This document shows positions 2,197 to 15,032 of a stretch of DNA of 42,911 nucleotides, piece by piece (position 1 is the first letter of the stretch; each line of letters starts with the position of its first letter). This DNA is from Sphaerochaeta sp. (GTDB lineage: Bacteria > Spirochaetota > Spirochaetia > Sphaerochaetales > Sphaerochaetaceae): assembly GCA_016342655.1 (NCBI GenBank), contig JAEINL010000029.1, forward strand, positions 1 through 42,911. Reading direction: 5' to 3'. The notes under the pieces were generated by a model. That model made no database searches and had not been told where the DNA came from. It saw only the letters and a program-made list of their open reading frames with translations. Made by a program: the position numbers and the translations under genes.

Positions 2197-3108
2197 TCAT
2201 CTACCTAGCAAGTGAAGAACCCGTTGCACCAAGACATCAGTACTATAGCTCTCTACATTGAAAGAGCCAAGATCAAGAAGATTAGGAGCAAAGTAGGATG
2301 TAACCATAGGTTTTGAATTCCTTATCATGGTGTAACCCAATTCTGAGGCTATTGCTTGTATTTTCTTATCCCCAGCCCCACTTCCAAAAGGCAATGCAAT
2401 GACAGTTACGCTCTCTCCCACTTCCTTCTCAATGATTTCTTTCGATAGGAGGAGCTCATCCCTAATCTCTTTTTCGGAAAGCTCTGCCAATCTTCTGTGG
2501 GTCAAGGAGTGCGATTCAAAGGTGAAAAGTTTCTCTCCGGAGGCTGTCCTATAGGATGCCATTTCGCGTATCTGATCCCAACTCATGTATCCGACTTCCC
2601 CCACAAAATTGGGCACAAGGAAAAAGGTTGCTGGTACTTCGTAGAGCTTGAGCAAGGGGTAGACTATGCCATAGATGGAGAGATCTCCATCATCAAAAGT
2701 GATGATGAGACGGTCTGTTCTGTCCTTGAAATCCGGATCCTGTAATGCCTGGAAATCGGTAAGTGTGAAATTGCGTTTATAAAAGGCAATATCATGCTCA
2801 AAGTTATACAGGTCACGATTATAGATGTTTCCTGTCCTGCCAAACACAATATTATGATATAGGACCACCAACAGTTTGGGGTCTTGCCTCTGAGGGACAA
2901 CAGAGGCAACCTCCAGACTCTGGACAGTCCTCACAGGAAGCCCTTCAACAGAAGAGGAAATCCAATAGCGTACAGAAGGAGTGGAAGACACGTCCAGAGG
3001 CGCAGAACTTTCTTCAGGTAAGGTTGATGCCAGTAAGAAACCGGAAAAAAGAAAAAAGAGAGATGCAAGGACAGGAAAAAGAACCCTTTTATATATACGT
3101 AGCTTCAT
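2197..3108 (-). CDS. Polysaccharide deacetylase (CE4), exported
   Basis: The protein has a signal sequence or membrane anchor at residues 1-28 and a NodB-type carbohydrate esterase family 4 domain at about 75-300. TFDDG at residues 137-141 carries the catalytic-base and metal aspartates. ESHSLTH at 198-204 gives the two metal-binding histidines, His200 and His204. TFFLVP follows as the usual third strand. The layout (signal, short linker, NodB domain with VVLYHNIV) resembles the deacetylase half of PgaB. Next to a processive GT2 enzyme this suggests partial de-N-acetylation of an exopolysaccharide during export, which is an inference. The PgaB hydrolase domain is missing; the adjacent GH16-like protein may supply a hydrolytic step. 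ATG at 3108 is the only good start. Confidence 0.85.
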   Translation of the reverse strand: MKLRIYKRVLFPVLASLFFLFSGFLLASTLPEESSAPLDVSSTPSVRYWISSSVEGLPVRTVQSLEVASVVPQRQDPKLLVVLYHNIVFGRTGNIYNRDLYNFEHDIAFYKRNFTLTDFQALQDPDFKDRTDRLIITFDDGDLSIYGIVYPLLKLYEVPATFFLVPNFVGEVGYMSWDQIREMASYRTASGEKLFTFESHSLTHRRLAELSEKEIRDELLLSKEIIEKEVGESVTVIALPFGSGAGDKKIQAIASELGYTMIRNSKPMVTSYFAPNLLDLGSFNVESYSTDVLVQRVLHLLGR

Positions 3109-3693
3109 TGCCTGTTTTCCTTATTTTGAATTTCTCTCATATACTAGCTTCTGCATGCAAAGCAGACAAGCCTCCTGTCTTCTCATTATCTCGCACTATC
3201 ATCAAACCCTGACTTTTAAAATCTGGCATTTCACTGTTCCTATGTTTTGTTAATCGAGTTCGACCGATGGTATTACAATAATAATGATACTCATGTTTTC
3301 TTTTACTATATAGACACCATTGCATGGATAGCCGAAAACATCCTTGCCTGCAGCCATACGATCATCGACCGCAACCTGATGTACTTCGATTGTCAGGCTT
3401 GAGGATGCTTGCTTGAATATAACACGCACCTCAGTGAGTTTGATACGTGGTGCAAGCGGACAGGGGAGAATCTGCTTTGTAGAATCCCTTGCTTGAGATG
3501 TATGAAGGTCTACGAAAAACACAATGACCCCTCTGCCTTATTCTTGCTTGGGAATGACTTTGAAAAGTCTGTAACACACCATCTTACTATCTTTTTTCAA
3601 GGACTGAGACCCTTGTGTACCGCCATAGAGAATAGTACCATGCAGTATAGTAAACAGAAACACTATATCAGGCAGCAAAAAGGAAAGCTCATC
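3109..3693 (+). other. Stretch without a supportable gene
   Basis: This 585-base interval separates the deacetylase gene from the divergent DUF4153-type gene and should hold both promoters; I found no convincing -35/-10 pair. On the minus strand two open stretches, 3538-3741 and 3250-3522, lie in the same frame and are separated by one TAA plus five codons. Together they could be the end of a decayed gene, but I recognise no family. Confidence 0.4.
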
Positions 3694-5067
3694 ATGTTCG
3701 ACATTGAAGAACAAATCCGCAGTTGGAAAGCGCATATCCATGCAACAAGTTCAATAGACAACAATGAAGTCAAAAACCTAGAGTCACTCTTGAGGGATAC
3801 CATCACTGAACTCTCAGGGCAAGGAGTCAATGAAGAAGAGGCTTTTCTTGTAGCAATCCGTCGGCTTGGAGACAGTGAGATAATCGAGAAGGAGTTTGCA
3901 AAAATCTCAACCGAGGAACTCTGCCACCAACTCTACATGCCTCTTAACACTTCTATGACACAGAAGACTGAAAGGAAGGAACTCGTTGTAATCCTAGCCC
4001 TTACCCTATTTGGAGGGTTGTTGAGCAAAATACCTGCCCTCTTCGGGTTTGGGGACTTTGACACCTATGACCTCCTCTACCTGAAAAATGCATCCCTGTT
4101 CGCTTTCACCCCAGTAGCCATGTATTTCCTGTACAAACGAAAAATCCCTCTTAGCAAAACCCTTTTAGCCATAGCATTTTTCCCCCTTGCCGCCCTTCTG
4201 GTTAACATCTATCCCTACCAGGAGCCATACCATACAGCAATCCTTACGATCATCCACCTGCCGATTCTCTCTCTTATTTTCCTGGTCCCTCTCTATGGGG
4301 GGTCTGCAAAAGGCACCGGATGGAAAAGCCCAAAGACTCGACTCGATTTCATCCGCTTCATCGGCGAGGCTTTCGTGTATGCAGTGCTCATAGGAATGGG
4401 GGGCATGGTCCTCATCCTCCTTACCCTGGGGACTTTTGAGCTTATCAAGGTCGATGCATCACCTTTTGTCGTATATTGGATGGGGCCTTTCGGACTCTTC
4501 GGCCTGTTCACTGTAGCTGCCTACCTGGTTGACCAGAAGAAAAGTCTTATGGGAGGTATCGCACCGGTCTTAGCCCGAATCTTCACTCCGCTCTTCTCTT
4601 TAGTGCTGGTCAGCCTCATCATTGCATTTCTTACTTCACCAAACCAAGCCTCTGAGAATCGTTCGATGCTGATCTGGTTTGATGTGATCCTTGCATTCGT
4701 CCTTGCCCTGACACTTTATTCAATGTGTTCATCAGAGCAAAAGAAGAATACTTCCAGATTTCCCCTCTGGGATGTTATGACATTTGTGCTTATCATTTGC
4801 GCAGTACTGGTCGACCTCATAGCCCTATGGGGCATTCTTGCCCGCTTGCAAACATTCGGCTTCTCCGCAAACCGAACTGCAGCCTTGGGAGAAAACCTCC
4901 TGCTATTAAGCAATCTTATCTTCCTTGCAATTGGATACAGCAGGTATATGGCAAAGAATATGTCTTTCTCTAGGATAGTGGAGTTGCAGATGCGCTTCTT
5001 GCCTCTCTATGGGATTTGGGCAGCGGTTGTTGTCATTCTCTTTCCTCTGTTATTCGGATTCAGATAA
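3694..5067 (+). CDS. Polytopic membrane protein, permease-prefix N-terminus with DUF4153-like body
   Basis: The start is placed at ATG 3694, preceded by AGGAAAG, because the preceding 95 in-frame codons look non-coding. Residues 1-70 are a helical cytosolic domain of the kind found in 'permease prefix domain 1' proteins (IRSWKAHI, then AIRRLGDSEIIEKEF). From about residue 100 to the end there are roughly ten hydrophobic segments. The block RFIGEAFVYAVLIGMGG and the following helices resemble DUF4153 proteins. No catalytic motif is visible. Such prefix-domain proteins often travel with a PadR-type regulator, but none lies next to this one. A signalling or envelope-stress role is possible but unproven. 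Confidence 0.7.
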   Translation: MFDIEEQIRSWKAHIHATSSIDNNEVKNLESLLRDTITELSGQGVNEEEAFLVAIRRLGDSEIIEKEFAKISTEELCHQLYMPLNTSMTQKTERKELVVILALTLFGGLLSKIPALFGFGDFDTYDLLYLKNASLFAFTPVAMYFLYKRKIPLSKTLLAIAFFPLAALLVNIYPYQEPYHTAILTIIHLPILSLIFLVPLYGGSAKGTGWKSPKTRLDFIRFIGEAFVYAVLIGMGGMVLILLTLGTFELIKVDASPFVVYWMGPFGLFGLFTVAAYLVDQKKSLMGGIAPVLARIFTPLFSLVLVSLIIAFLTSPNQASENRSMLIWFDVILAFVLALTLYSMCSSEQKKNTSRFPLWDVMTFVLIICAVLVDLIALWGILARLQTFGFSANRTAALGENLLLLSNLIFLAIGYSRYMAKNMSFSRIVELQMRFLPLYGIWAAVVVILFPLLFGFR

Positions 5068-5248
5068 GGGCAACTGCTTCCTTAGCAATCATGCATATCC
5101 TTCGTTTCGGCATGTGATGTACCAGGAGAAAATTGCCAGGGCTCATTGACCTTGGAGTCTAAAGAAGTATGGATTCCTCGAGATTTTTATACTGAGTACT
5201 AGGTGAACCAATGTATAGCAGAGAATTGGTACCTCCATGCGAGCTTCT

Positions 5249-5510
5249 CTAGTTCAGCTTGTTCTGAAACTCGCGTGGGGTGATCCCTACATTTTTCTTG
5301 AATAGCACACTAAAGTACCGCTGATCTCGAATACCAACTTGATCTGCTACCTCGTAGATTTTTTCTAATATCATCAAGAAACCTTATTCCAATGAATTGT
5401 ACAGCACAAGACACAGGACTCTTCTGTACACTTTGCTCACCCCGGAGATATTCCTGGAATAGCATGATACGGCTGTCATCCATTTTTTCCATTTGCACAC
5501 GTACCTCATA
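5249..5510 (-). pseudogene. AraC-family regulator remnant with internal deletion
   Basis: Reading the minus strand, one frame ends with VADQVGIRDQRYFSVLFKK, then VGITPREFQNKLN and a stop at 5249-5251. This is the second helix-turn-helix of an AraC/YesN-type regulator. The upstream piece, QEYLRGEQSVQ...FLDDI, lies in another frame and resembles the linker and first helix before the DNA-binding domain. Joining them would omit about 45 residues, the whole first helix-turn-helix, and needs a frame change near 5370. No full-length frame exists, so this is a dead gene. It is divergent from the MATE gene, which an intact version may once have controlled. Confidence 0.7.
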
Positions 5511-5570
5511 GCTTCTCCACAAATTCCGCACTTGCACACCACCCCCTATTGGACTACAGTAGTCCATAGT

Positions 5571-6917
5571 ATGAACAAACAGGCAAAGCTGATGACAACC
5601 GGATCCATCCAAGGGCATATCATCCGTTTTGCCATCCCCATATTCCTAGGGAACCTCTTTCAACAACTCTACAATACAGCAGACTCAGTAGTCGTAGGAA
5701 ACTTCCTCGGCAAGGAAGCCTTAGCCGCCATTACCTCTTGCGGTTCCCTCATTTTCCTGCTCGTCGGGTTGGTCCAAGGCATCTTCGTCGGAGCAGGGGT
5801 GGTAATATCAACCTATTACGGAGCTGGTGACATCATTTCTGTAAAGAAAGCCATCCACACATCCATCGCGTTCAGTCTCTGTAGCAGTGTATTCCTCACG
5901 ATCTTCGGATACTTCTTTGCTCCGGTCATCCTCAGGTGGATGGGCACACCCCCTACTGTCTTCGACGATGCTAAAGCCTATGTACAGGTATTCTTCCTAG
6001 GAATCAGTGCCCTGGTACTCTACAACACTGCTGCTGGTATTCTCCAAGCTGTTGGAGACAGCAGGCATCCCCTCTACTTTTTGATAGTAGCTGCAATACT
6101 GAATATAATACTGGATGTGCTGTTTGTCGGATTCTTCAAAATGGGTATCGAAGGTACTGCCTATGCAACCATCATCAGCCAATCAGTGAGTGTCTTCTTG
6201 TCCTTCCGTCTCCTGCTGACCAGCGATGATATCTTTAAGGTAAAGCTACGCAACATTGGGTTCAAGAAAGGGATGCTGAGCAGAATCCTCAGATTTGGGA
6301 TACCCTCGGGAATCCAGAACTCAGTAACCTCCTTTGCCAATGTCGTAGTCCAATCGAGCGTAAACCTCTTTGGAGCGGCTGCAATGGCAGGTACCGGCTC
6401 TTTTATGAGAATCCAGGGCTTTGCCCTCATCCCCATCACCAGCTTTGCCCTAGCCATGACCACCTTCACCGGACAGAACATTGGAGCCAGAGAGTACGAC
6501 AGGGTTAAAACAGGAGTACGCTTTGGCATAACCTTCGCCATAATCCTATCGGAGGCGATCGGAATCCTGCTCTTTTTCTATGCAGATGTACTGGTGGCCC
6601 TGTTCAACCGTGACCCCTCCATCATTATCTACGGAGTGCAGAAATCACACATATCTTCGCTGTTCCTCTTTGCCCTTGCCCTTTCCCACGTCATGAGCGG
6701 CCTCTTCAGAGGGGCCGGAAAGGCCATGGTGCCCATGGCTGTCATGTTGGCTTTCTGGTGTATCTTCAGGGTCCTCTACATCAAGATAGGGCTCCTGTTC
6801 CTGATGGACATCCGCGTCGTCTATTGGGCACACCCCATTACGTGGATGCTGAGCGCCACAGTATTCATCATCTATTATTTCAAAGCCGATTGGATGAATC
6901 GTAAGATTCCAGTCTAA
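5571..6917 (+). CDS. MATE family multidrug/sodium efflux protein
   Basis: A 448-residue, twelve-helix antiporter of the MATE superfamily that exports organic cations or other toxic compounds in exchange for Na+ or H+. The typical N-terminus is present: MTTGSI, then FAIPIFLGNLFQQLYNTADS and VVGNFLGKEALAA at about residues 20-60. The second half repeats the fold from about residue 235 (RFGIPSGIQNSVTSFANVVV). The chosen start is ATG 5571 (MNKQAKL), which matches the usual family N-terminus; the frame is open 26 codons further upstream but that part overlaps the AraC remnant. No strong ribosome binding site is seen; ATG 5595 is an alternative. The substrate is unknown. Confidence 0.88.
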   Translation: MNKQAKLMTTGSIQGHIIRFAIPIFLGNLFQQLYNTADSVVVGNFLGKEALAAITSCGSLIFLLVGLVQGIFVGAGVVISTYYGAGDIISVKKAIHTSIAFSLCSSVFLTIFGYFFAPVILRWMGTPPTVFDDAKAYVQVFFLGISALVLYNTAAGILQAVGDSRHPLYFLIVAAILNIILDVLFVGFFKMGIEGTAYATIISQSVSVFLSFRLLLTSDDIFKVKLRNIGFKKGMLSRILRFGIPSGIQNSVTSFANVVVQSSVNLFGAAAMAGTGSFMRIQGFALIPITSFALAMTTFTGQNIGAREYDRVKTGVRFGITFAIILSEAIGILLFFYADVLVALFNRDPSIIIYGVQKSHISSLFLFALALSHVMSGLFRGAGKAMVPMAVMLAFWCIFRVLYIKIGLLFLMDIRVVYWAHPITWMLSATVFIIYYFKADWMNRKIPV

Positions 6918-6977
6918 ATACTTGCTTTTGCTGTCTGCCTTTATATATGCATCAGAGGTGTGTTTTCTGGGTATTAA

Positions 6978-7181
6978 AATGCATATGCTCGTCATGGCTG
7001 CTACCATGGGGCTCCCATTCATCTTTCCAATGGCGGAGTTCCAGTCATCGTCATCGGAGTACCTGTACGCTATGTACACTCCCATTATGGTATTTGCTCC
7101 TCTAGTGATGTCCAAAATAGTGTCAAGCTTGCCGTTGAAATCATACAAAGCCTGGATGAAACGATAATTCGGAGTTTCTGA
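6978..7181 (+). pseudogene. C-terminal remnant of an M42 family aminopeptidase
   Basis: The open frame reads ARHGCYHGAPIHLSNGG, then VPVIVIGVPVRYVHSHYG, then KLAVEIIQSLDE and a stop. This matches the end of M42 metallo-aminopeptidases/endoglucanases, where G-A-x-H-L precedes the G-V-P strand and R-Y-[IV]-H-S carries a metal-ligand histidine. A stop codon at 6975-6977 directly precedes the fragment and the remaining ~280 residues of a normal M42 protein are absent. What remains cannot be functional. Confidence 0.75.
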
Positions 7182-7182
7182 G

Positions 7183-7353
7183 ATGCACTATAGGATCGGT
7201 GGCATGTTTACCCTCGAGCCACAGGCAAAGGAAAAAGCACACTTTCTCCAAGACATCAGGACCAATGAATCCATTGCCAGTGTACAGATAGACCAGCGCT
7301 ATGATGAGAAAACCATGGAATACCTAGGGAAATCCCTCTCAAGTCTTCGGTGA
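7183..7353 (+). CDS. Small hypothetical ORF, 56 residues
   Basis: The ATG follows the M42 remnant's stop by one base, and the frame runs MHYRIGGMFTLEPQ...YLGKSLSSLR to TGA. The composition is protein-like (charged, amphipathic, no runs), but I recognise no family and see no clear ribosome binding site. Since it abuts a dead gene it may itself be the front of a truncated gene rather than a functional small protein. The ~150 bases after it, up to the ATP-grasp gene, show nothing assignable. Confidence 0.3.
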   Translation: MHYRIGGMFTLEPQAKEKAHFLQDIRTNESIASVQIDQRYDEKTMEYLGKSLSSLR

Positions 7354-7501
7354 TAGTACACCTCTGCTTAGAAAATCCTATCCAGGAAAGTGGACAGTCA
7401 CCACTCCACTTTCTTTCTTGATTTATCCTCTGATCCGCTTGACAAAGGGGTAACAGAAGCGAACTATATAGATATCTAAGCACTTCCTTTACAAGGATAT
7501 C

Positions 7502-8479
7502 ATGTATAGTAACCACACAATAATCGTTTTACACAACCAGATACTCAGTACCAGTCCAGAGGATGTGCTCGACATATACAGACAGGCCAAGTGGATAGAA
7601 GAAATCCTCCAGGGAAAGGGATACAAGACCCTTTTGGTCCCCTTTTCCCTTGATGCTCTATCAATGCTTGCAACAATGAACAGCAACAGCCCGATTCTTG
7701 TCTTTAACTTGGTAGACTCAGCTCCTGGGGAGGAGAATCTTGCCTATCTGGTTCCAGGCTTGCTTGAACATATGCACCTGCCATACACTGGGTGTTCCCT
7801 GCAAAATCTCTTCGTCACTACCAACAAGTTGCTGGCCAAACGAGTACTCAAGGCTGCAAACATTGACACCCCGCCTTGGCTCACCAAGGACGAGACTGAA
7901 GCACTGTTACACAGTGCCACAAAGCGCTACATCATCAAACCCATATCTGAAGACGCTTCCATAGGCCTGAATGAAAGCTCCATAGTAAGTGCAGAGCAGG
8001 TTGTTGCGGAATTGAAGACCAAAGAAGAGACGCTGCTCACCCCTTGCTTCGCAGAGGCCTTCATAGAGGGAAGGGAGTTCACCGCCTGCATGTATGGGAC
8101 ACCAGAGAGCTGTACGATACTTACCCCTTACGAATGGGTATTCCAAGGGTATGAAGAGCATCAGAAGGAGAAGATAATTACCTATGATGCCAAGTGGACT
8201 GAAAACTCATTTGGGTACGAGCACATAGTGGCAAAATATCATGCAGATGAGTGCGACTTTCCCCTGCTCGAGAGACTGACTGCAATTGCCAGCCAATGTT
8301 GGAAAGCATTCTCACTTACTGGCTATGCCCGGGTAGACTTTCGTATCGATACAGAGGGAAAAAGCTGGGTGTTGGAGGTAAACTGCAACCCCAGTTTCTA
8401 TGGATTCTATCACCTAGCTCTGGAGGGGGGCTTCCCCTTTGAGGATCTTGTACAGGATATTATCGAGCTGGTACGCTAA
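7502..8479 (+). CDS. D-Ala-D-Ala-ligase-like ATP-grasp enzyme (plus-strand paralogue)
   Basis: A 325-residue ATP-grasp ligase that should join a carboxylate to an amine through an acyl-phosphate. The N-terminal domain ends in ILVFNLVDS, the central ATP-binding part has YIIKPISEDASIGL at about 138-151, and the C-terminal metal-binding part has YARVDFRID with LEVNCNPS, giving the acidic and Asn ligands of the D-Ala-D-Ala ligase group. AAGGA lies a few bases before the ATG. It abuts, tail to tail with no gap, a minus-strand operon that carries two more such ligases. It is closest by eye to the one at 9434-10387 (shared FNLV, PLLERL/PLLKTL, YARVDFR, LEVN-NP), so a duplication is likely. Dedicated Ddl function is unlikely given its divergent motifs. 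Confidence 0.8.
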   Translation: MYSNHTIIVLHNQILSTSPEDVLDIYRQAKWIEEILQGKGYKTLLVPFSLDALSMLATMNSNSPILVFNLVDSAPGEENLAYLVPGLLEHMHLPYTGCSLQNLFVTTNKLLAKRVLKAANIDTPPWLTKDETEALLHSATKRYIIKPISEDASIGLNESSIVSAEQVVAELKTKEETLLTPCFAEAFIEGREFTACMYGTPESCTILTPYEWVFQGYEEHQKEKIITYDAKWTENSFGYEHIVAKYHADECDFPLLERLTAIASQCWKAFSLTGYARVDFRIDTEGKSWVLEVNCNPSFYGFYHLALEGGFPFEDLVQDIIELVR

Positions 8480-8938
8480 TCAGAGATATGTGTCGACCCA
8501 AACCAACGATTCCAATTCAAGGCCCATCTCTCGATAGAGAGCCTGGGCTTTTGCATTTTTTGGGTGGGTCACCATAGCAAGATAGGTGCACCCCTGTTGC
8601 TTGGACCATGCTTGGACATACTCTAAAAGCTCTGCACCCAGTCCTTGGTTTCTACTTTCCTTCGAGACAAACAGTTCATTCAGCCAGAAGTAATCCCCTT
8701 TTGTCTCCAAGCCACAGCAGATATTTCCATAGGCAAACCCAATTGCAGTAGCATCTTCCTCATAGGCAACGAAGAAAGCGGCCCTGCTTTGCTCCTTCAT
8801 AGAGTTTCGTATTTCTGAGGCTACCTCGTCCCTACTTTGGTGATAGCCAATAAAGGACATCTGCTGCTGGACTAGGGTTATAACCCTCTCTAAGTCCAGG
8901 ATACTTTCGTCATGGTGATAGGCAACAATAGTGGACAT
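8480..8938 (-). CDS. GNAT family N-acetyltransferase (second in operon)
   Basis: A 152-residue single-domain acetyltransferase. The acetyl-CoA-binding motif A is clear: WLNELFVSKESRNQGLGAELL, with the R/Q-x-x-G-x-G/A loop at about residues 95-102. Motif B follows as the AKAQALYREMGLE segment typical of the family. It is the last gene of the lysine aminomutase/ATP-grasp operon, 9 bases after the preceding GNAT gene. Its acceptor is unknown; from context it may acetylate the amino group of beta-lysine or a peptide derived from it. Confidence 0.85.
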   Translation of the reverse strand: MSTIVAYHHDESILDLERVITLVQQQMSFIGYHQSRDEVASEIRNSMKEQSRAAFFVAYEEDATAIGFAYGNICCGLETKGDYFWLNELFVSKESRNQGLGAELLEYVQAWSKQQGCTYLAMVTHPKNAKAQALYREMGLELESLVWVDTYL

Positions 8939-8947
8939 GCTCTCTTC

Positions 8948-9430
8948 CTACCAAGCCTTCACATAGATGAGCTTGTTGTCGTTGGGGGCGTAATAGTTCT
9001 CTAGTTCTGCCTCCAGATGATAGCCGTTTCGTTCGTAAAAGGATCTTGTCGGTACATACTGGTCAGTGGAGGAGGTTTCTATATATATCCGTGTCCCCCC
9101 TCGCTTCTGTATTTCCTGTTCGGTCTGTCTGAGCAACAAGGTTCCCAATCCCTGTCCACGATAGGTGGTATCAACTGCTATCCAGTAGAGGTCATAGCTG
9201 CTCTTGGTTCCAGGGATCGGTCCGAAACAGGTGTAGCCTCTGAGTGAGGATTCATGCACGGCAAACTGGAAGAAGTATTCGCAGCTCTCACCTTGCTCGA
9301 GGCGCTCACAAACGAGCGATACCCCTACTTTTTGCTCTTCGGCATTGAAGAAGCCTGAGGTTCCTAGTATTGAAGCGACACTCTGGATATCGGAAGCAAC
9401 AGGTTGTTCCCTAAAGGTATAGGTTTCCAT
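8948..9430 (-). CDS. GNAT family N-acetyltransferase (first in operon)
   Basis: A 160-residue acetyltransferase with motif A as YWIAVDTTYRGQGLGTLLL (R-G-Q-G-L-G pyrophosphate loop at about residues 94-99) and a motif B ending FYERNGYHLEAELENYY. It begins 3 bases after the upstream ATP-grasp gene and ends 9 bases before the second GNAT gene, so translation coupling is likely. The two GNATs are not close copies of each other, suggesting two different acetylation steps or substrates. No specific substrate can be read from the sequence. Confidence 0.85.
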   Translation of the reverse strand: METYTFREQPVASDIQSVASILGTSGFFNAEEQKVGVSLVCERLEQGESCEYFFQFAVHESSLRGYTCFGPIPGTKSSYDLYWIAVDTTYRGQGLGTLLLRQTEQEIQKRGGTRIYIETSSTDQYVPTRSFYERNGYHLEAELENYYAPNDNKLIYVKAW

Positions 9431-9433
9431 GAT

Positions 9434-10387
9434 TTACCCTTTGATGATCATGGAGATCATCTTATCGTACGTCAGACCAAACCGTTGGGCAGCTGCGACA
9501 AAGCCACTGTCCTGGGCGATGCAAGGGTTCAGATTCACTTCGAGTATGTAGGGAGCTCCCAATGCATCAACGCGAAAGTCTACCCTTGCATACCCCTTCC
9601 CACCAAAGAGCAGGAAAGCTTTGCGGCTCAACTCTTGCAAGGTCTTGAGCAAGGGCTCATCCTCCTGGCTACAGGAAAACGTACGTTGGGTATGGATGTA
9701 CTCAAAGGAGGCCTCCTCCCACTTAGCTTCATAACCAACGATGGCCGGCTTATCAGGGGGATAGTCAACAAAGAGCATTTCAGCAGGGTCAAAGACTATC
9801 GTTTCTCCCTCGACAGTAAGAAGGGAGACACTGAACTCACGCCCTTGGATGAAGGTCTCTGCAAAGTGAGAACCTCCTGCAAGGGCCTTTGCAAGTGAGG
9901 CTTCGACATGAAACGTTTGGACTGAGGCATCGGTAATGCCAACAGAGGCCTCCTCTGCCACTGGCTTGATGATAAGGGGATGACCTAGGAACCTTGAAAA
10001 GTCCTCATTACTTGAAGCTTCTAGCCAAGCAGGCGTCGGAAGCCCTTCCCTGTGCATAAGGCGTTTGGCAAACAGCTTGTCTGAAGAGAGCATCAGAGCA
10101 TGGCTGTCTCCCCCGGTAAACCTGATAGCCATTATTTCAAACAGTGCAGGGGCAAGGTGGAGTAGCCGACAACCTTCCAAGGTCTCCACAAGGTTGAATA
10201 TGAGATCAGGCTTGGAAACAAGGATTCGTTTCTTCATCCTCTCCAGGTTCAGGGAGAAGCCCAGATAAAACACCTCATAGCCCAAGGCCTTGAGGGCCTT
10301 ACGTACTTGCCTTACTTCCAATGCAGTGTCCAGTTCGTCTTTGGTAGGTTCTTGTGCAAGCTTGTCCGATACTATCAGGATACGCAT
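9434..10387 (-). CDS. D-Ala-D-Ala-ligase-like ATP-grasp enzyme
   Basis: A 317-residue ATP-grasp ligase. Visible elements are an N-terminal domain with LIFNLVETLEG, a central LIIKPVAEEASVGI (ATP-contacting Lys and flexible loop), FIQGREFSVSLL, and the C-terminal metal site YARVDFRVD plus LEVNLNPCIA. Its start overlaps the end of the preceding ATP-grasp gene by 13 bases, a typical operon arrangement. It likely forms an amide or peptide bond between an amino acid and a product of the upstream enzymes. By eye it is more similar to the plus-strand ligase at 7502 than to its operon neighbour. Confidence 0.82.
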   Translation of the reverse strand: MRILIVSDKLAQEPTKDELDTALEVRQVRKALKALGYEVFYLGFSLNLERMKKRILVSKPDLIFNLVETLEGCRLLHLAPALFEIMAIRFTGGDSHALMLSSDKLFAKRLMHREGLPTPAWLEASSNEDFSRFLGHPLIIKPVAEEASVGITDASVQTFHVEASLAKALAGGSHFAETFIQGREFSVSLLTVEGETIVFDPAEMLFVDYPPDKPAIVGYEAKWEEASFEYIHTQRTFSCSQEDEPLLKTLQELSRKAFLLFGGKGYARVDFRVDALGAPYILEVNLNPCIAQDSGFVAAAQRFGLTYDKMISMIIKG

Positions 10388-11373
10388 TGTCTCTCAACTT
10401 TCCCTGCCCGGAGGAGGGCTGAATCCAGTATACGTGTTATCAGTTCATGGTAGCTTATCCCTGCCTTCCTGCAGAGGATGGGGAGATCAGAGTCCACAGG
10501 ATTCAGGCCGGCAAGAGGATTCACTTCCAAGAAGTTTACCCTAAGCTGACCATCCATCTTCACATCGATTCGTCCACCATCACGACAGCCGAGGGCATTC
10601 CAAGCTGCCAGGGCAACCTTTTCACACTCAGAAGCCACCTCTCCCCCAACAAGGTGATACTTGGCAAACTCCAGGTACTCCTGCTTGGTCTTGTACGAGT
10701 AAACCCCCAGGTCACAGGATGGGTCTACAACGATTTCCATCACCCCTGTAGTCCTTGCGTTTTCGCGCGTCCCTGTGATTCCGACAGTAAATTCCCGTCC
10801 TTCAAGATAGGTCTCTACCAGAACAGGCTGCCTGAACTCATCAAGGAGGAGTTTTGCAACATGGGAAAGGGCTAGCGAATCCCTGACGATCGAGTTGGCA
10901 CTGATGCCCATTCCTGTCCCACCACCTACGGGCTTGAGGAACAAGGGAAAGGGAAGCTCAACATTAGCCACTTCGCTCTCGTCATGGATAACATAGTAGT
11001 CAGGGGTAGGCACGCCCTGCTCCCTGACTACAGCCTTGGTCATCCCCTTATGCAGAGTGAGGGCCAGGATGTGGGATTCAGAGAACACATAGGGAATCTC
11101 ATAGGCATCAAGGAGAGCTGGAATCTGCGCTTCACGACACAAGCCATGCAACCCCTCGGCAATGTTGAAGACAAGGTCACAACGATTGCCTTGGGCAAGG
11201 AAAGTCACCAGTGCCTTGATATTTCCAATGCGGATAGTCTCATAGCCAAGTAGCCTGAGAGAATCGTCAATGGCATCAATTGTCACCAGGTTGTCAAATT
11301 CAGCGACTGATTCAGCGGGATATCCTGCCGCGAGGTAGTCGTCTTTGAGGTCATAGGTCATTCCGATTAGCAT
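10375..11373 (-). CDS. D-Ala-D-Ala-ligase-like ATP-grasp enzyme, first of pair
   Basis: The start is set at ATG 11373 (MLIGMTYDLKDD), which lies one base after the aminomutase stop; an upstream extension of 33 codons would run into that gene and is not protein-like. The 332-residue product has LVFNIAEGLHG in the N-terminal domain, LFLKPVGGGTGMGI in the ATP-binding part, YLEGREFTVGITG, and GRIDVKMDG with FLEVNPLAGLNP as metal-binding residues. The second domain looks more like classical Ddl than its two paralogues do. From its place immediately after lysine 2,3-aminomutase I infer that beta-lysine, or a compound carrying it, is a substrate. This is untested. Confidence 0.82.
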   Translation of the reverse strand: MLIGMTYDLKDDYLAAGYPAESVAEFDNLVTIDAIDDSLRLLGYETIRIGNIKALVTFLAQGNRCDLVFNIAEGLHGLCREAQIPALLDAYEIPYVFSESHILALTLHKGMTKAVVREQGVPTPDYYVIHDESEVANVELPFPLFLKPVGGGTGMGISANSIVRDSLALSHVAKLLLDEFRQPVLVETYLEGREFTVGITGTRENARTTGVMEIVVDPSCDLGVYSYKTKQEYLEFAKYHLVGGEVASECEKVALAAWNALGCRDGGRIDVKMDGQLRVNFLEVNPLAGLNPVDSDLPILCRKAGISYHELITRILDSALLRAGKVERQCVS

Positions 11374-11374
11374 G

Positions 11375-12655
11375 TCAGGCTCCTGTACCCTCTTGGGCAC
11401 GGTCGGGATAGGCAAAGACCTTCCCTTCGTAGTTGCGAAGATAGAGGTTCTTCTCATCCTGTCCCACTTCATAGTCAGGTAGGATGGGAACTTTGCCTCC
11501 TCCTCCAGGGGTGTCTATGACATACTGGGGAACGGCGTACCCACTGGTAAAGCCCCGCAAACCGGCGATGAGCTCCTTACCCTTGTCGACAGTTGTGCGA
11601 AAGTGTGCTGATCCTGTGATAGGGTCACACTGGAAGAGATAATAGGGCTTGATCCTTACCTTCAGCAGACGGTGATAGAGCTCCATGAGAGTCTCAACAG
11701 AATCATTCACTCCTTTGAGCAGTACAGTCTGACTGCCCATGACCACTCCTGCATCAGCTAAGCTGTTACAGGCCTTGGAGGACTCGTCTGTAATCTCATC
11801 AGGATGGGTGCAGTGCACGCTCAGGTAGATGGGCTTGTAGCGCTTGAGGATTCGTAGGAGATTAGGGGTAATTCGCTGGGGAAGTACCATAGGGACCTTG
11901 GTTCCTATCCTGACCATCTCCACATGGTTGATGGAGGTTATCTCCTTGAGCAACCATTCGATCTTCTCATCCGAGAGGGTCAGAGGATCCCCTCCAGAGA
12001 TGATGACATCCCGGATGGCAGGGGTATTTCGGATGTACTCGATGGCCTTCTTCCAATGGGTCTCCAGAGGCTCGGTGTGCCCTCCAACAAGACGGGAACG
12101 GGTACAATACCTGCAGTAGACTGAGCAGAAGCTGGTGGTAAGGAACAAGGCACGATCAGGATACCGATGGACGATACCAGGGACAGGACTGGTGTTCTCT
12201 TCATGCAAGGGATCTTCACTCTCGCCGGGAGAAGTGAAGGACTCAAGGATGGTAGGAACCACACTCTTGCGCAGGGCACTATTCACGTCAGTGGGATCGA
12301 TAAGGCTAAGGTAGTAGGGGGTTATGGAGAAGGGAAAGCTGGATTCAACATTCTCAAGAGCTTGGCGCTCTTCGGTGGTTAGGGTAAGGAAACGGGAGAT
12401 CTGAGCAAGGGTGGTGATCCGATGGGAGACCTGCCAATGCCAATCATTCCACATCTCTTTGGTCGTGTCCGGAAAATAGGTCTTTCTGAACTTAGTGGTG
12501 CGACCCCAACGGGAGTCTTTTAGGCTTACTCCAGCTCGTTTGGGGTCGCTTGTTTCAGGGACACTCTGCGAAGCGCAAGCTTGCATGCCTTCGCTTATAA
12601 GCGGAGGGTCACCATCGTCGACGCTAATTGTTTGATTTGTATTAAAATGTTCCAT
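11375..12655 (-). CDS. kamA: Lysine 2,3-aminomutase (radical SAM, PLP)
   Basis: The enzyme converts L-lysine to L-beta-lysine using S-adenosylmethionine, a [4Fe-4S] cluster and pyridoxal phosphate. In the 426-residue protein the cluster motif C-x3-C-x2-C is Cys177, Cys181 and Cys184. The PLP-lysine motif PGGGGK is at 383-388. Asp344 (FQCDP) and Asp381 (VIDTPGGGG) correspond to the two aspartates that bind the lysine side-chain amine in the clostridial enzyme, favouring lysine over glutamate as substrate. The length fits full KamA/AblA rather than the shorter EpmB. The start at ATG 12655 follows an AAGG ribosome binding site; a TTG 11 codons upstream is less likely. It leads an operon with two ATP-grasp and two GNAT genes. 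Confidence 0.88.
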   Translation of the reverse strand: MEHFNTNQTISVDDGDPPLISEGMQACASQSVPETSDPKRAGVSLKDSRWGRTTKFRKTYFPDTTKEMWNDWHWQVSHRITTLAQISRFLTLTTEERQALENVESSFPFSITPYYLSLIDPTDVNSALRKSVVPTILESFTSPGESEDPLHEENTSPVPGIVHRYPDRALFLTTSFCSVYCRYCTRSRLVGGHTEPLETHWKKAIEYIRNTPAIRDVIISGGDPLTLSDEKIEWLLKEITSINHVEMVRIGTKVPMVLPQRITPNLLRILKRYKPIYLSVHCTHPDEITDESSKACNSLADAGVVMGSQTVLLKGVNDSVETLMELYHRLLKVRIKPYYLFQCDPITGSAHFRTTVDKGKELIAGLRGFTSGYAVPQYVIDTPGGGGKVPILPDYEVGQDEKNLYLRNYEGKVFAYPDRAQEGTGA

Positions 12656-12799
12656 AGGAACCTTCTTCGACCAGAGCGATTCATCCAAGCAGAAACTGTC
12701 ATGATCCTCTGGGCTATTCCTCTCTAAAGTGTATCACCAAGGTTGAAATTCGTCTGTAGAAAGATGCAAGTTTTTAGCATATTTTTTAGGTATTTTTCA

Positions 12800-12836
12800 G
12801 AGATTTTTAGCTTAGGGAAAAGGCGTAAAAAATCTC
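12800..12836. repeat. Inverted repeat between kamA and the CRISPR array
   Basis: GAGATTTTT at 12800-12808 is matched by AAAAATCTC at 12828-12836, with a 19-base loop. It lies in the AT-rich 242-base gap between the distal end of the array and the kamA start. No run of U follows it on either strand, so it is not a clear intrinsic terminator. It could be a regulatory dyad for kamA. Nothing else is assignable in this gap. Confidence 0.4.
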
Positions 12837-12897
12837 ACTCGCATTGAGGAAACCAACAGAGACAGAGAGCAGAATTCCAATGGTTAAAACACCACCA

Positions 12898-14695
12898 GAA
12901 ACACCCCCCACTGGCGTGGGGAAGACTGGCCTTCACTAGTGTTTGGCTATACCCTTCTAGAAACACCCCCACTGGCGTGGGGAAGACTTCTCGTAGATTT
13001 TTGGGAGATTTGAATTGTCAGAAACACCCCCACTGGCGTGGGGAAGACTTCTCGTAGATTTTTGGGAGATTTGAATTGTCAGAAACACCCCCACTGGCGT
13101 GGGGAAGACTCATCAATCTTCATACCGGCTTTGATGCTAGTAGAAACACCCCCACTGGCGTGGGGAAGACTAGGTGGAGAGCCTGAAACGCTAGGGATCG
13201 TAGGAAACACCCCCACTGGCGTGGGGAAGACGTCGTCGTGTGTCGAGTCCTCGTCGTTCTCGTAGAAACACCCCCACTGGCGTGGGGAAGACCGTTGGAG
13301 GTCATTATGGTCACCCATTGGATAGGAAACACCCCCACTGGCGTGGGGAAGACACATGCGTACCATCCCATGTTAACCCTGTAGGAGAAACACCCCCACT
13401 GGCGTGGGGAAGACTACCTCCCAATTCAGCACCCACAGCTTTCACCAGAAACACCCCCACTGGCGTGGGGAAGACGTCAGCGAACTACTGCGAAATCGCT
13501 CGATATGAGAAACACCCCCACTGGCGTGGGGAAGACGCGTCCTGATGAAGCCTAGAAATGCACTGGTCGGAAACACCCCCACTGGCGTGGGGAAGACCTG
13601 TCTATCCCAATGTTTACGTATGAGACTTTAGAAACACCCCCACTGGCGTGGGGAAGACTCTTGAGAATCTCTTTATCACATCCTGGGATGAGAAACACCC
13701 CCACTGGCGTGGGGAAGACCCCAACTGAACACTTGTCAGCCTTAATCCTTTGGAAACACCCCCACTGGCGTGGGGAAGACGTTGCAATGTACCTGCGCAA
13801 TGTAACATCTGGAGAAACACCCCCACTGGCGTGGGGAAGACATTATATTGACACTACTATGATACCATGATACCGAAACACCCCCACTGGCGTGGGGAAG
13901 ACTTCCATCAAATACCAGTAATAAAGAGCTTACAAGAAACACCCCCACTGGCGTGGGGAAGACTTTCGCGCGGTATATATACCTATGGCCACAACAGAAA
14001 CACCCCCACTGGCGTGGGGAAGACTCGTTGCAACGGAAAAAAAGCTTATAGAAATAAGAAACACCCCCACTGGCGTGGGGAAGACGAGAGCTGGCTTCAG
14101 GTACAGGGAACCAGATCAGAAACACCCCCACTGGCGTGGGGAAGACATATTGCTTACAGGAACGCCTATAGTTTTGGGAGAAACACCCCCACTGGCGTGG
14201 GGAAGACTCGTCCCGGGACTGTCGATATAAGCATGACTTAGAAACACCCCCACTGGCGTGGGGAAGACCCGGCTTGTCACCCTTCTTGCAGCTCCTCAGT
14301 GGAAACACCCCCACTGGCGTGGGGAAGACCAAAACCCAACGATAAGATATTCGATAGCCATGGAAACACCCCCACTGGCGTGGGGAAGACAATCTCTATG
14401 CTTCTGTTGCTCAAGGTGATGGGGAAACACCCCCACTGGCGTGGGGAAGACGTCTGTACTACAGAAATTTGAAGATAGATTGGAGAAACACCCCCACTGG
14501 CGTGGGGAAGACTATTATATCCCAGGCTCTACAGGATTTGGAGTAGAAACACCCCCACTGGCGTGGGGAAGACGCTGACGCTATCATCGTGGGTGCTGTA
14601 CTCATGGAAACACCCCCACTGGCGTGGGGAAGACTCACTGCATATAATCCCGACGCTTTGCTTTTCGGAAACACCCCCACTGGCGTGGGGAAGAC
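12898..14695 (-). CRISPR. Type I-E CRISPR array, 30 repeats and 29 spacers
   Basis: Thirty 28-base repeats (plus strand GAAACACCCCC, then ACTGGCGTGGGGAAGAC) alternate with 29 spacers of exactly 33 bases, giving a strict 61-base period. Twenty-nine repeats are identical; the one at 12898-12926 has an extra C. Read on the minus strand the repeat has the stem CCCCAC/GTGGGG with loop GCCA and ends GTGTTTC, aligning with the E. coli type I-E repeat. The array is therefore transcribed on the minus strand, in the same direction as the cas genes, and the degenerate repeat is at the leader-distal end. Spacers at 12988-13020 and 13049-13081 are identical. A pyrimidine (crRNA sense) follows the repeat in 28 of 29 spacers. 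No spacer origin could be assigned. Confidence 0.98.
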
Positions 14696-14735
14696 AGCGA
14701 CATATAGTACCATACGTATGCTTATTACACTATAT
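14696..14735 (-). promoter_or_regulatory. Compact CRISPR leader with dyad symmetry
   Basis: Only 40 bases separate the cas2 stop from the first repeat of the array. They are AT-rich and contain a perfect palindrome CATACGTATG (14711-14720) flanked by the inverted pair ATATAGT (14702-14708) and ACTATAT (14729-14735). A further dyad, CACTA-tatc-TAGTG at 14728-14741, spans the cas2 stop. Position and orientation identify this as the leader or its repeat-proximal part. The promoter for the array may lie inside cas2. No IHF-like site is obvious. Confidence 0.6.
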
Positions 14736-15032
14736 CTAGTGCATACCTTCCTGCTCTAATCTTTCAAAAATCAGTTGAAGGCCATCTATTGTAGCAATCT
14801 TCTTCTTCGTGTCCCCAACTCCCCAAATTTTATAATAAGGAGGTTTTGTTATGCGTTGAAGCACCAAAATACCTGAAGAGGGAGGACAATGATCAATCAA
14901 GTACGTAATTACTGTATCTGCAACAGAATCTTTTATCCCTGACACGAAAATATTGGCACGAGGTTCAACAAACCACAATTTCATGCGTCCTCTTACAGCA
15001 GGAGGGAGATTATTTGCTATTACCACTACCAT
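14736..15032 (-). CDS. cas2: CRISPR-associated endoribonuclease-like protein Cas2, type I-E
   Basis: A 98-residue protein of the type I-E Cas2 group that forms the central dimer of the Cas1-Cas2 spacer integrase. It begins with the ferredoxin-like first strand MVVVIANNLPPAVRGRMKLW and contains GILVLQRI, both typical of this group (E. coli 94 residues). Its ATG overlaps the cas1 stop in TAATG, so the two are translationally coupled. It is the last cas gene and the array follows 40 bases later on the same strand. Confidence 0.93.
   Translation of the reverse strand: MVVVIANNLPPAVRGRMKLWFVEPRANIFVSGIKDSVADTVITYLIDHCPPSSGILVLQRITKPPYYKIWGVGDTKKKIATIDGLQLIFERLEQEGMH

Follow-up and report, generated by a model that had tools for sequence, protein, structure and literature searches.

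A conserved gene set of Spirochaetota combining a predicted lysine 2,3-aminomutase with two ATP-grasp ligases and an acetyltransferase, probably for the synthesis of an acetylated beta-lysine peptide or amide

The window analysed here is a stretch of 42,911 nucleotides from Sphaerochaeta sp. (contig JAEINL010000029.1), in which a putative lysine 2,3-aminomutase gene is followed by genes for ATP-grasp ligases resembling D-alanine--D-alanine ligase (Ddl) and for GNAT acetyltransferases (Table 1). The initial annotation had described five coupled minus-strand genes and a third ligase converging on them without a gap, and the coordinates, which place the five genes from 12655 to 8480, confirm both points. 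The successive junctions of kamA, AG1, AG2, GNATa and GNATb are a gap of 1, an overlap of 13, a gap of 3 and a gap of 9 bases, and the stops of the convergent AG3 and GNATb genes abut at 8479/8480. Among the family profiles, KamA matches Radical_SAM and LAM_C and passes TIGR00238, the three ligases pass Dala_Dala_lig_C, and both acetyltransferases pass Acetyltransf_1.

Table 1. Genes of the aminomutase and ligase locus, in window coordinates
Gene	Coordinates	Strand	Length (aa)	Description
kamA	12655..11375	minus	426	Radical SAM aminomutase from a KamA group of its own; conversion of L-lysine to beta-lysine predicted
AG1	11373..10375	minus	332	Ddl-like ATP-grasp ligase; motif EVNPLAGLxPxxSDLPI
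AG2	10387..9434	minus	317	Second Ddl-like ATP-grasp ligase; motif NPCIxxDSGF
GNATa	9430..8948	minus	160	Core acetyltransferase
GNATb	8938..8480	minus	152	Optional acetyltransferase, paired with AG3
AG3	7502..8479	plus	325	Optional convergent ATP-grasp ligase, paired with GNATb

The conserved unit consists of the four genes kamA-AG1-AG2-GNATa, while GNATb and AG3 form an optional module. Of 48 loci selected for the presence of a core gene (L146, L149, L150, L153, L154 and L100-L102 not included), 28 show the four-gene order, and a further 6 have the same core with either an additional HDAC-type gene or a fusion of AG1 and AG2. Relatives of AG1, with 50-96% identity, occur in 27 of the 139 genomes of the order, and in all 27 loci matches to KamA and AG2 adjoin AG1, a linkage that exceeds chance. 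The expectation that the five genes would be kept together in relatives thus holds for the core and fails for GNATb, present in 10 of the 48 loci; as the four genes are conserved, the dispersal that the initial annotation would have counted against its proposal was not found for them. GNATb and AG3 always occur together in those 10 loci, a pairing that applies to the loci examined only, since second matches to the AG2 family (31-35% identity) in the genomes G124, G122 and G021 may be AG3 relatives located away from the set.

Another gene found next to the core, encoding an HDAC-GNAT protein, is not an exclusive partner of it: of its 19 matches in 392 Spirochaetota genomes, 10 lie in genomes with AG1 and 9 in genomes without, and it adjoins the core in 6 full-length cases and as one 160 aa frame in L084. 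One neighbour group near the set spans 7 genera. A scan of viral contigs with AG1 returned no relative, and plasmid matches to AG1 and AG2 reach at most 32% identity among the matches listed. Among the papers listed by a literature search, none describes the kamA-AG1-AG2-GNATa set.

Across the same 392 genomes, AG1 is present in 36 and a KamA above 440 bits in 34, with 32 having both, the bit cut-off having been fixed after the scores were seen (97 genomes match at 1e-75). AG2, counted in 29 genomes after the exclusion of 8 weak matches (E 1e-34 to 1e-37), shares 28 genomes with AG1 and 28 with KamA, and its overlap with AG1 stays at 28 when all 37 matches are used; the three weak matches inspected adjoin a different gene of 335-340 aa and not the core. 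The 12 rows behind the AG1 profile come without exception from Spirochaetota genomes, mostly ones that it later recovered, so those matches arise by construction, and Fisher values for the co-occurrence overstate independence because the carriers are related. In G158, G191 and G339, parts of the core are found on separate contigs of one genome. Several cases go against the main reading: in five more loci (L146, L149, L150, L153 and L154) AG1 is separated from the rest of the core, three genomes (G143, G179 and G328) have AG1 with a KamA outside the operon group, and G182 and G237 have a KamA above the cut-off without AG1, that of G237 also falling outside the operon group, in a lysine fermentation cluster.

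The KamA proteins encoded in these operons form one phylogenetic group (support 98/98), apart from AblA and from BlsG. The initial annotation had claimed that KamA retains both lysine-binding aspartates, and the alignment bears this out: D344, D381 and K388 of the window protein align with D293, D330 and K337 of the solved lysine 2,3-aminomutase 2A5H, which we take to be the two lysine contacts and the PLP lysine, respectively, and the operon group conserves these three residues in every one of its 46 rows. The position of the second aspartate is occupied by T in two BlsG rows and by C in three rhizobial rows. The residue pattern fits lysine, and the operon KamA is accordingly predicted, from sequence, to act on this amino acid and to give beta-lysine, as had been proposed. 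Against this reading, the aspartate pair is also kept in other KamA-like rows and is thus not unique to the group, and the window KamA misses the cut-off of the AblA equivalog TIGR03820 (463.1 of 525.4 bits).

Ddl is the nearest solved family to AG1 and AG2 by both sequence and fold, and the earlier description of the ligases as Ddl-like is upheld. At best, AG1, AG2 and AG3 score 138.9, 114.6 and 108.7 bits against a D-Ala--D-Ala ligase cut-off of 243 bits, and a separate Ddl is encoded at C101 of the same genome (itself just under its own cut-off, with 258.4 of 262 bits), which rules out AG1 and AG2 as the housekeeping enzyme. The residues at the metal site of the last ATP-grasp motif are retained, with E in 34/34 and N in 34/34 rows of AG1, and E in 37/38 and N in 38/38 rows of AG2. 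The site of Y216, presumably the substrate-site tyrosine of Ddl, has no tyrosine in any of 34 AG1 rows, as placed by the HMMER alignment (MAFFT puts it two columns off), or of 38 AG2 rows. D296 of AG1 is invariant (34/34 rows) where Ddl has leucine, and C289 of AG2 is present in 35 of 35 core-type rows. A structure model of AG1, with a pLDDT of 60, was left unused. These patterns suggest that AG1 and AG2 are ATP-dependent carboxylate-amine ligases other than D-Ala:D-Ala ligases.

Taken together, the genes probably direct the cytoplasmic synthesis of a small acetylated peptide or amide of beta-lysine, a proposal whose directly observed basis is conservation, gene order, co-occurrence and residue patterns. 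KamA, as its residues and phylogeny indicate, would convert L-lysine to beta-lysine by moving the alpha-amino group; AG1 and AG2, judging from fold and residues, would couple beta-lysine to one or two partners; and GNATa would acetylate a free amine. Several genomes have KamA and AG1 with no detected AG2, so AG1 may use beta-lysine directly. In some lineages the HDAC-type amidohydrolase may strip acetyl groups. The window and its near relatives may use GNATb and AG3 to lengthen the product or to cap it. More tentatively, and with confidence a little short of even, the set might represent an undescribed class of tRNA-independent, non-ribosomal beta-peptides, namely N-acetylated di- or tripeptides assembled on beta-lysine by a dedicated pair of ATP-grasp ligases, in a system conserved in many families of Spirochaetota and supplemented in some lineages by a GNAT-HDAC enzyme for acetyl trimming.

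Known osmolyte pathways combine a KamA with a GNAT, or a GNAT with an ATP-grasp enzyme, and the same enzyme types meet here. An osmolyte (compatible-solute) role, which would refine the proposed pathway by adding a function to its product, is therefore possible, if rather doubtful. It agrees with the lack of a transporter common across families, with an MscS channel gene near kamA in L033, and with the description of beta-lysine as an osmoprotectant precursor in PMC9337991. However, the assembly already has an ablB, and the Rfam scan found no riboswitch in positions 3000-15000 of the window, nor any in 29 further loci, of which 25 carry the core or AG1 and the remaining four, L160, L162, L164 and L103, served as comparators (L155 was omitted for size), although Na+ and c-di-AMP riboswitches are known from ablA genes elsewhere. 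Riboswitch control of the set was thus rejected for these sequences. Likewise, the ammonia-stress response of Sphaerochaeta, as described in passages of PMC10785759, consists of opu transporters and of glycine, glutamine and glutamate genes and does not feature this set. Among the neighbours shared between genera, no salt, envelope or export gene is common to the carriers, and the osmolyte or envelope function offered by the initial annotation found no support.

The product could instead be a secreted specialised metabolite, similar to an antibiotic or a metallophore, an improbable alternative. Beta-arginine is part of blasticidin and beta-lysine of streptothricin, a BlsG cluster encodes an ATP-dependent carboxylate-amine ligase two genes further along, and a plasmid-borne KamA of Thioflavicoccus adjoins ATP-grasp and diamino-acid genes. 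Genes for MATE transporters occur close to the set in 8 loci from 4 genera, but these genera belong to one family in the sample, no other candidate for a dedicated transporter was found among the neighbours with an assigned identity, and among the clusters listed neither a regulator nor an exporter is found repeatedly in different families. A role of the ligases in modifying a component of the envelope or peptidoglycan, as their closeness to Ddl could indicate, is very unlikely, given the separate Ddl and the lack of any murein or lipopolysaccharide gene among the core's annotated neighbours, whose annotation is partial. Lysine catabolism, with KamA feeding fermentation and the ligases incidental, can practically be set aside, since the G237 KamA found with KamB and 3,5-diaminohexanoate dehydrogenase is outside the operon group, and the ligases track the operon-type KamA over many families.

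If correct, the synthesis of an acetylated beta-lysine peptide or amide would reveal a new small-molecule family in a little-studied phylum, add a fate for beta-lysine to those of fermentation and acetylation by AblB, and correct the label "D-alanine--D-alanine ligase" that such genes likely receive.

The set shares features with several known systems. AG1 and AG2 have the fold and the ATP-grasp residues of Ddl, but differ from it in their substrate-site residues. AblA/AblB, which produces N-epsilon-acetyl-beta-lysine, likewise joins a lysine-type KamA to a GNAT, but includes no ligase, and the window KamA belongs to another group. Neither GNATa nor GNATb matches the AblB model TIGR03827 at E 0.001, and the assembly carries its separate ablB beside a TGA-interrupted ablA at C103; together with the TIGR03820 score and the KamA grouping, this rules out AblAB identity. 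With a Ddl and this ablB elsewhere in the genome, the window set is neither. The synthesis of N-acetylglutaminylglutamine amide (NAGGN) follows the same logic of GNAT plus ATP-grasp, but involves no aminomutase, and the window's GNATs and ligases are separate genes; it is ruled out by TIGR03103, the model of the NAGGN GNAT-ATP-grasp protein, matched only by GNATb with 21.2 of 569 bits. The blasticidin-type BlsG cluster of a Kitasatospora plasmid also combines a radical SAM aminomutase with an ATP-dependent carboxylate-amine ligase, and differs in its nucleoside pathway and in its KamA, which is of the arginine type and has T in place of the second aspartate. The plasmid cluster of Thioflavicoccus mobilis (L103) has a KamA whose long branch falls within the operon group, and an ATP-grasp protein scoring 163 bits with the AG2 profile and 149 with that of AG1; unlike the window set, it is annotated with a single ligase and without a GNAT, and it includes diaminobutyrate and diaminopropionate genes.

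The kamA, AG1, AG2 and GNATa genes of the window, encoding a radical SAM aminomutase (KamA), two ATP-grasp ligases resembling D-alanine--D-alanine ligase (Ddl) and an acetyltransferase, form a genuine set of four that is conserved and co-occurs across many of the phylum's families; the acetyltransferase gene GNATb and the third ligase gene AG3 are an optional extension. The junctions measure +1 base for kamA/AG1, -13 for AG1/AG2, +3 for AG2/GNATa and +9 for GNATa/GNATb, and AG3 converges with this minus-strand run, its stop abutting that of GNATb. Coordinates and junctions bear out the arrangement described in the initial annotation, five coupled minus-strand genes and a convergent third ligase. 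The closest relatives of AG2 among named contigs are from Spirochaetales and Sphaerochaeta MAGs.

Features of the gene set and its surroundings in the window
Feature	Coordinates	Strand	Assignment
kamA	12655..11375	minus	KamA radical SAM family (Pfam, NCBIfam)
AG1	11373..10375	minus	Ddl C-terminal family (Pfam, NCBIfam)
AG2	10387..9434	minus	Ddl C-terminal family (Pfam, NCBIfam)
GNATa	9430..8948	minus	GNAT (Pfam, NCBIfam)
GNATb	8938..8480	minus	GNAT (Pfam, NCBIfam)
AG3	7502..8479	plus	Ddl C-terminal family (Pfam, NCBIfam)
CRISPR array	12905-14693		just upstream of kamA; 30 exact 20-base repeat cores, 61-base spacing
Region after the array	14736-18255		matches to Cas2 (CT1978), Cas1, Cas5, CT1975 and the PF08798 Cas family

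Within the order, AG1 is contained in 27 of 139 genomes; KamA and AG2 accompany it at all 27 loci and GNATa at 25, the other two loci (L007 and L032) stopping at contig ends. Among 392 Spirochaetota genomes, AG1 occurs in 36, spread over 21 genera and every match with E < 1e-120, AG2 in 37 (29 strong), and KamA in 34 above 440 bits or 97 at the wider cut of 1e-75. The genomes in common number 28 for AG1 and AG2, 32 for AG1 and KamA, and 28 for AG2 and KamA; Fisher values for this co-occurrence are too strong, since the carriers are related by descent. In G158, G191 and G339, parts of the set lie on separate contigs within one genome.

Anatomy was counted over 48 loci from 47 genomes (G339 supplies two). 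The order kamA-AG1-AG2-GNATa is found in 28. Joint conservation of the five genes, set as a test in the initial annotation, holds for these four but not for GNATb, which is optional and accompanies AG3 in 10 loci, always both together. Four loci carry a gene for an HDAC-type amidohydrolase between AG2 and GNATa (in L084 as a 160 aa frame only), L088 has an AG1-AG2 fusion plus the HDAC gene, L091 the fusion, and L093 the order HDAC-AG1-AG2-GNATa-kamA. The remainder comprise kamA-AG1 (five loci; a contig edge cuts L037 inside AG2, and L148 has some 1.1 kb remaining), kamA-AG2-GNATa (three) and other combinations (five). Five further AG1 loci, outside the 48, had no core neighbour within the stretch examined. 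Among the neighbour groups listed, MATE genes occur close to 8 loci, which represent 4 genera within a single family, one loose group spans 7 genera, and the rest cover 2 or 3 genera each.

Related arrangements were also observed. In G328, a genome of another order, L151 (6524-9527) combines AG1 with a divergent KamA and a GNAT matching at 35%, adjoined by short genes whose sequence looks SET-like by eye. At L100 (6025-8057), L101 (7032-9053) and L102 (7731-9751), distant relatives of AG2 each sit with a gene of 335-340 aa, a separate two-gene unit.

The HDAC gene is an occasional partner of the core set only: its protein has 19 matches in the 392 genomes, 10 of them in AG1 genomes. The HDAC domain of the 596 aa L085 protein is closest to acetylpolyamine amidohydrolases (9gkz, 6phr), and its L088 relative has a weak N-terminal GNAT match. 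All the metal-site patterns searched for are present in L085-L088, L159 and L194; two, as written, are missing in L093, L190 and L196. Other Spirochaetota genomes also have GNAT-HDAC proteins at a distance from the core genes (L190-L199).

The best solved relative of KamA is L-lysine 2,3-aminomutase (2A5H, E 1e-133). A 66-row tree places the operon KamAs in a single group of 46 rows (support 98/98), separate from AblA (the aminomutase of N-epsilon-acetyl-beta-lysine synthesis), from lysine fermentation enzymes and from BlsG of blasticidin-type clusters; the KamAs of L151, G143 and G179 fall outside it. Retention of both lysine-binding aspartates, claimed for the window KamA, extends to all 46 rows, as does that of the PLP lysine. 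Other KamA-like rows also keep both aspartates, and the second is T in two BlsG rows and C in three rhizobial ones. The window KamA scores 463 bits, below the AblA cut-off of 525, and matches LAM_C over only positions 1-57 of 127.

Other KamA neighbourhoods were noted. A long-branched member of the operon group lies on a Thioflavicoccus mobilis plasmid from a salt-marsh mat (L103 3656-9137), together with genes for a diaminobutyrate transaminase and an ATP-grasp ligase and others resembling SbnA/SbnB, possibly a diamino-acid peptide cluster. On rhizobial plasmids (L107 7040-9499, L109 5529-8137), the KamA with C for the second aspartate adjoins a gene whose annotation is biotin carboxylase family (ATP-grasp type), a further pairing of aminomutase and ligase. 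On a Klebsiella plasmid (L111 6028-9924), the neighbours of a distant KamA include an MFS transporter and a protein of the class I tRNA ligase family.

The host assembly (3.9 Mb, 161 contigs) has a contamination estimate of 5.94%, and its other contigs therefore may not all belong. On C103 (L160 5865-8022), ablB passes its cut-off (299 vs 205 bits), and the ablA ahead of it has one in-frame TGA, which may be a true change, an assembly error or due to a foreign contig. C122 holds a further KamA-like gene, and C101 a Ddl just under its curated cut-off (258 vs 262 bits). The relative G094 has an intact ablA/ablB pair (AblA 751 bits); the AblB model is matched in 4 of 36 AG1 genomes, the host and G094 being the two that pass the cut-off. 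According to PMC9337991, Na+ and c-di-AMP riboswitches occur on ablA genes. Rfam scans gave no match in window positions 3000-15000 and tRNAs only in 29 other loci; the lack of such riboswitches in these scans weakly disfavours AblA-like control. The Sphaerochaeta ammonia-shock response, in passages of PMC10785759, involves opu transporters together with glycine, glutamine and glutamate genes, and the core set is not among the genes named there.

No published description of the set was found in the titles or abstract openings of the matches listed, and 'aminomutase' is absent from passages of PMC2922099 and PMC4431377. An earlier mention is possible, for example in a 2009 amidoligase survey. 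The best reading is that the core set would make an N-acetylated beta-lysine peptide or amide.

Ddl proteins are the best solved relatives of two of the ligases by sequence (AG1 E 3e-18, AG2 E 4e-17). Ddl structures also rank first for the predicted AG2 model (pLDDT 77, TM about 0.7); that of AG1 was too poor and was left unused. Sites are read here by the roles of the corresponding Ddl residues. Both ligases retain the metal-site E and N, whereas no row of either (34 for AG1, 38 for AG2) has Y at the Ddl Y216 site, which is W in all 38 AG2 rows. Further departures from Ddl are an invariant D that follows the serine aligned with S281 in AG1 and, in AG2, a C at the G276 position of 35 of the 38 rows (the exceptions being the weak relatives L100-L102). 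E25 and D27 are invariant in the 34 AG1 rows, and D20 is present in 36 of 38 AG2 rows; judged from these alignments, the extra acidic residues would fit a diamino substrate.
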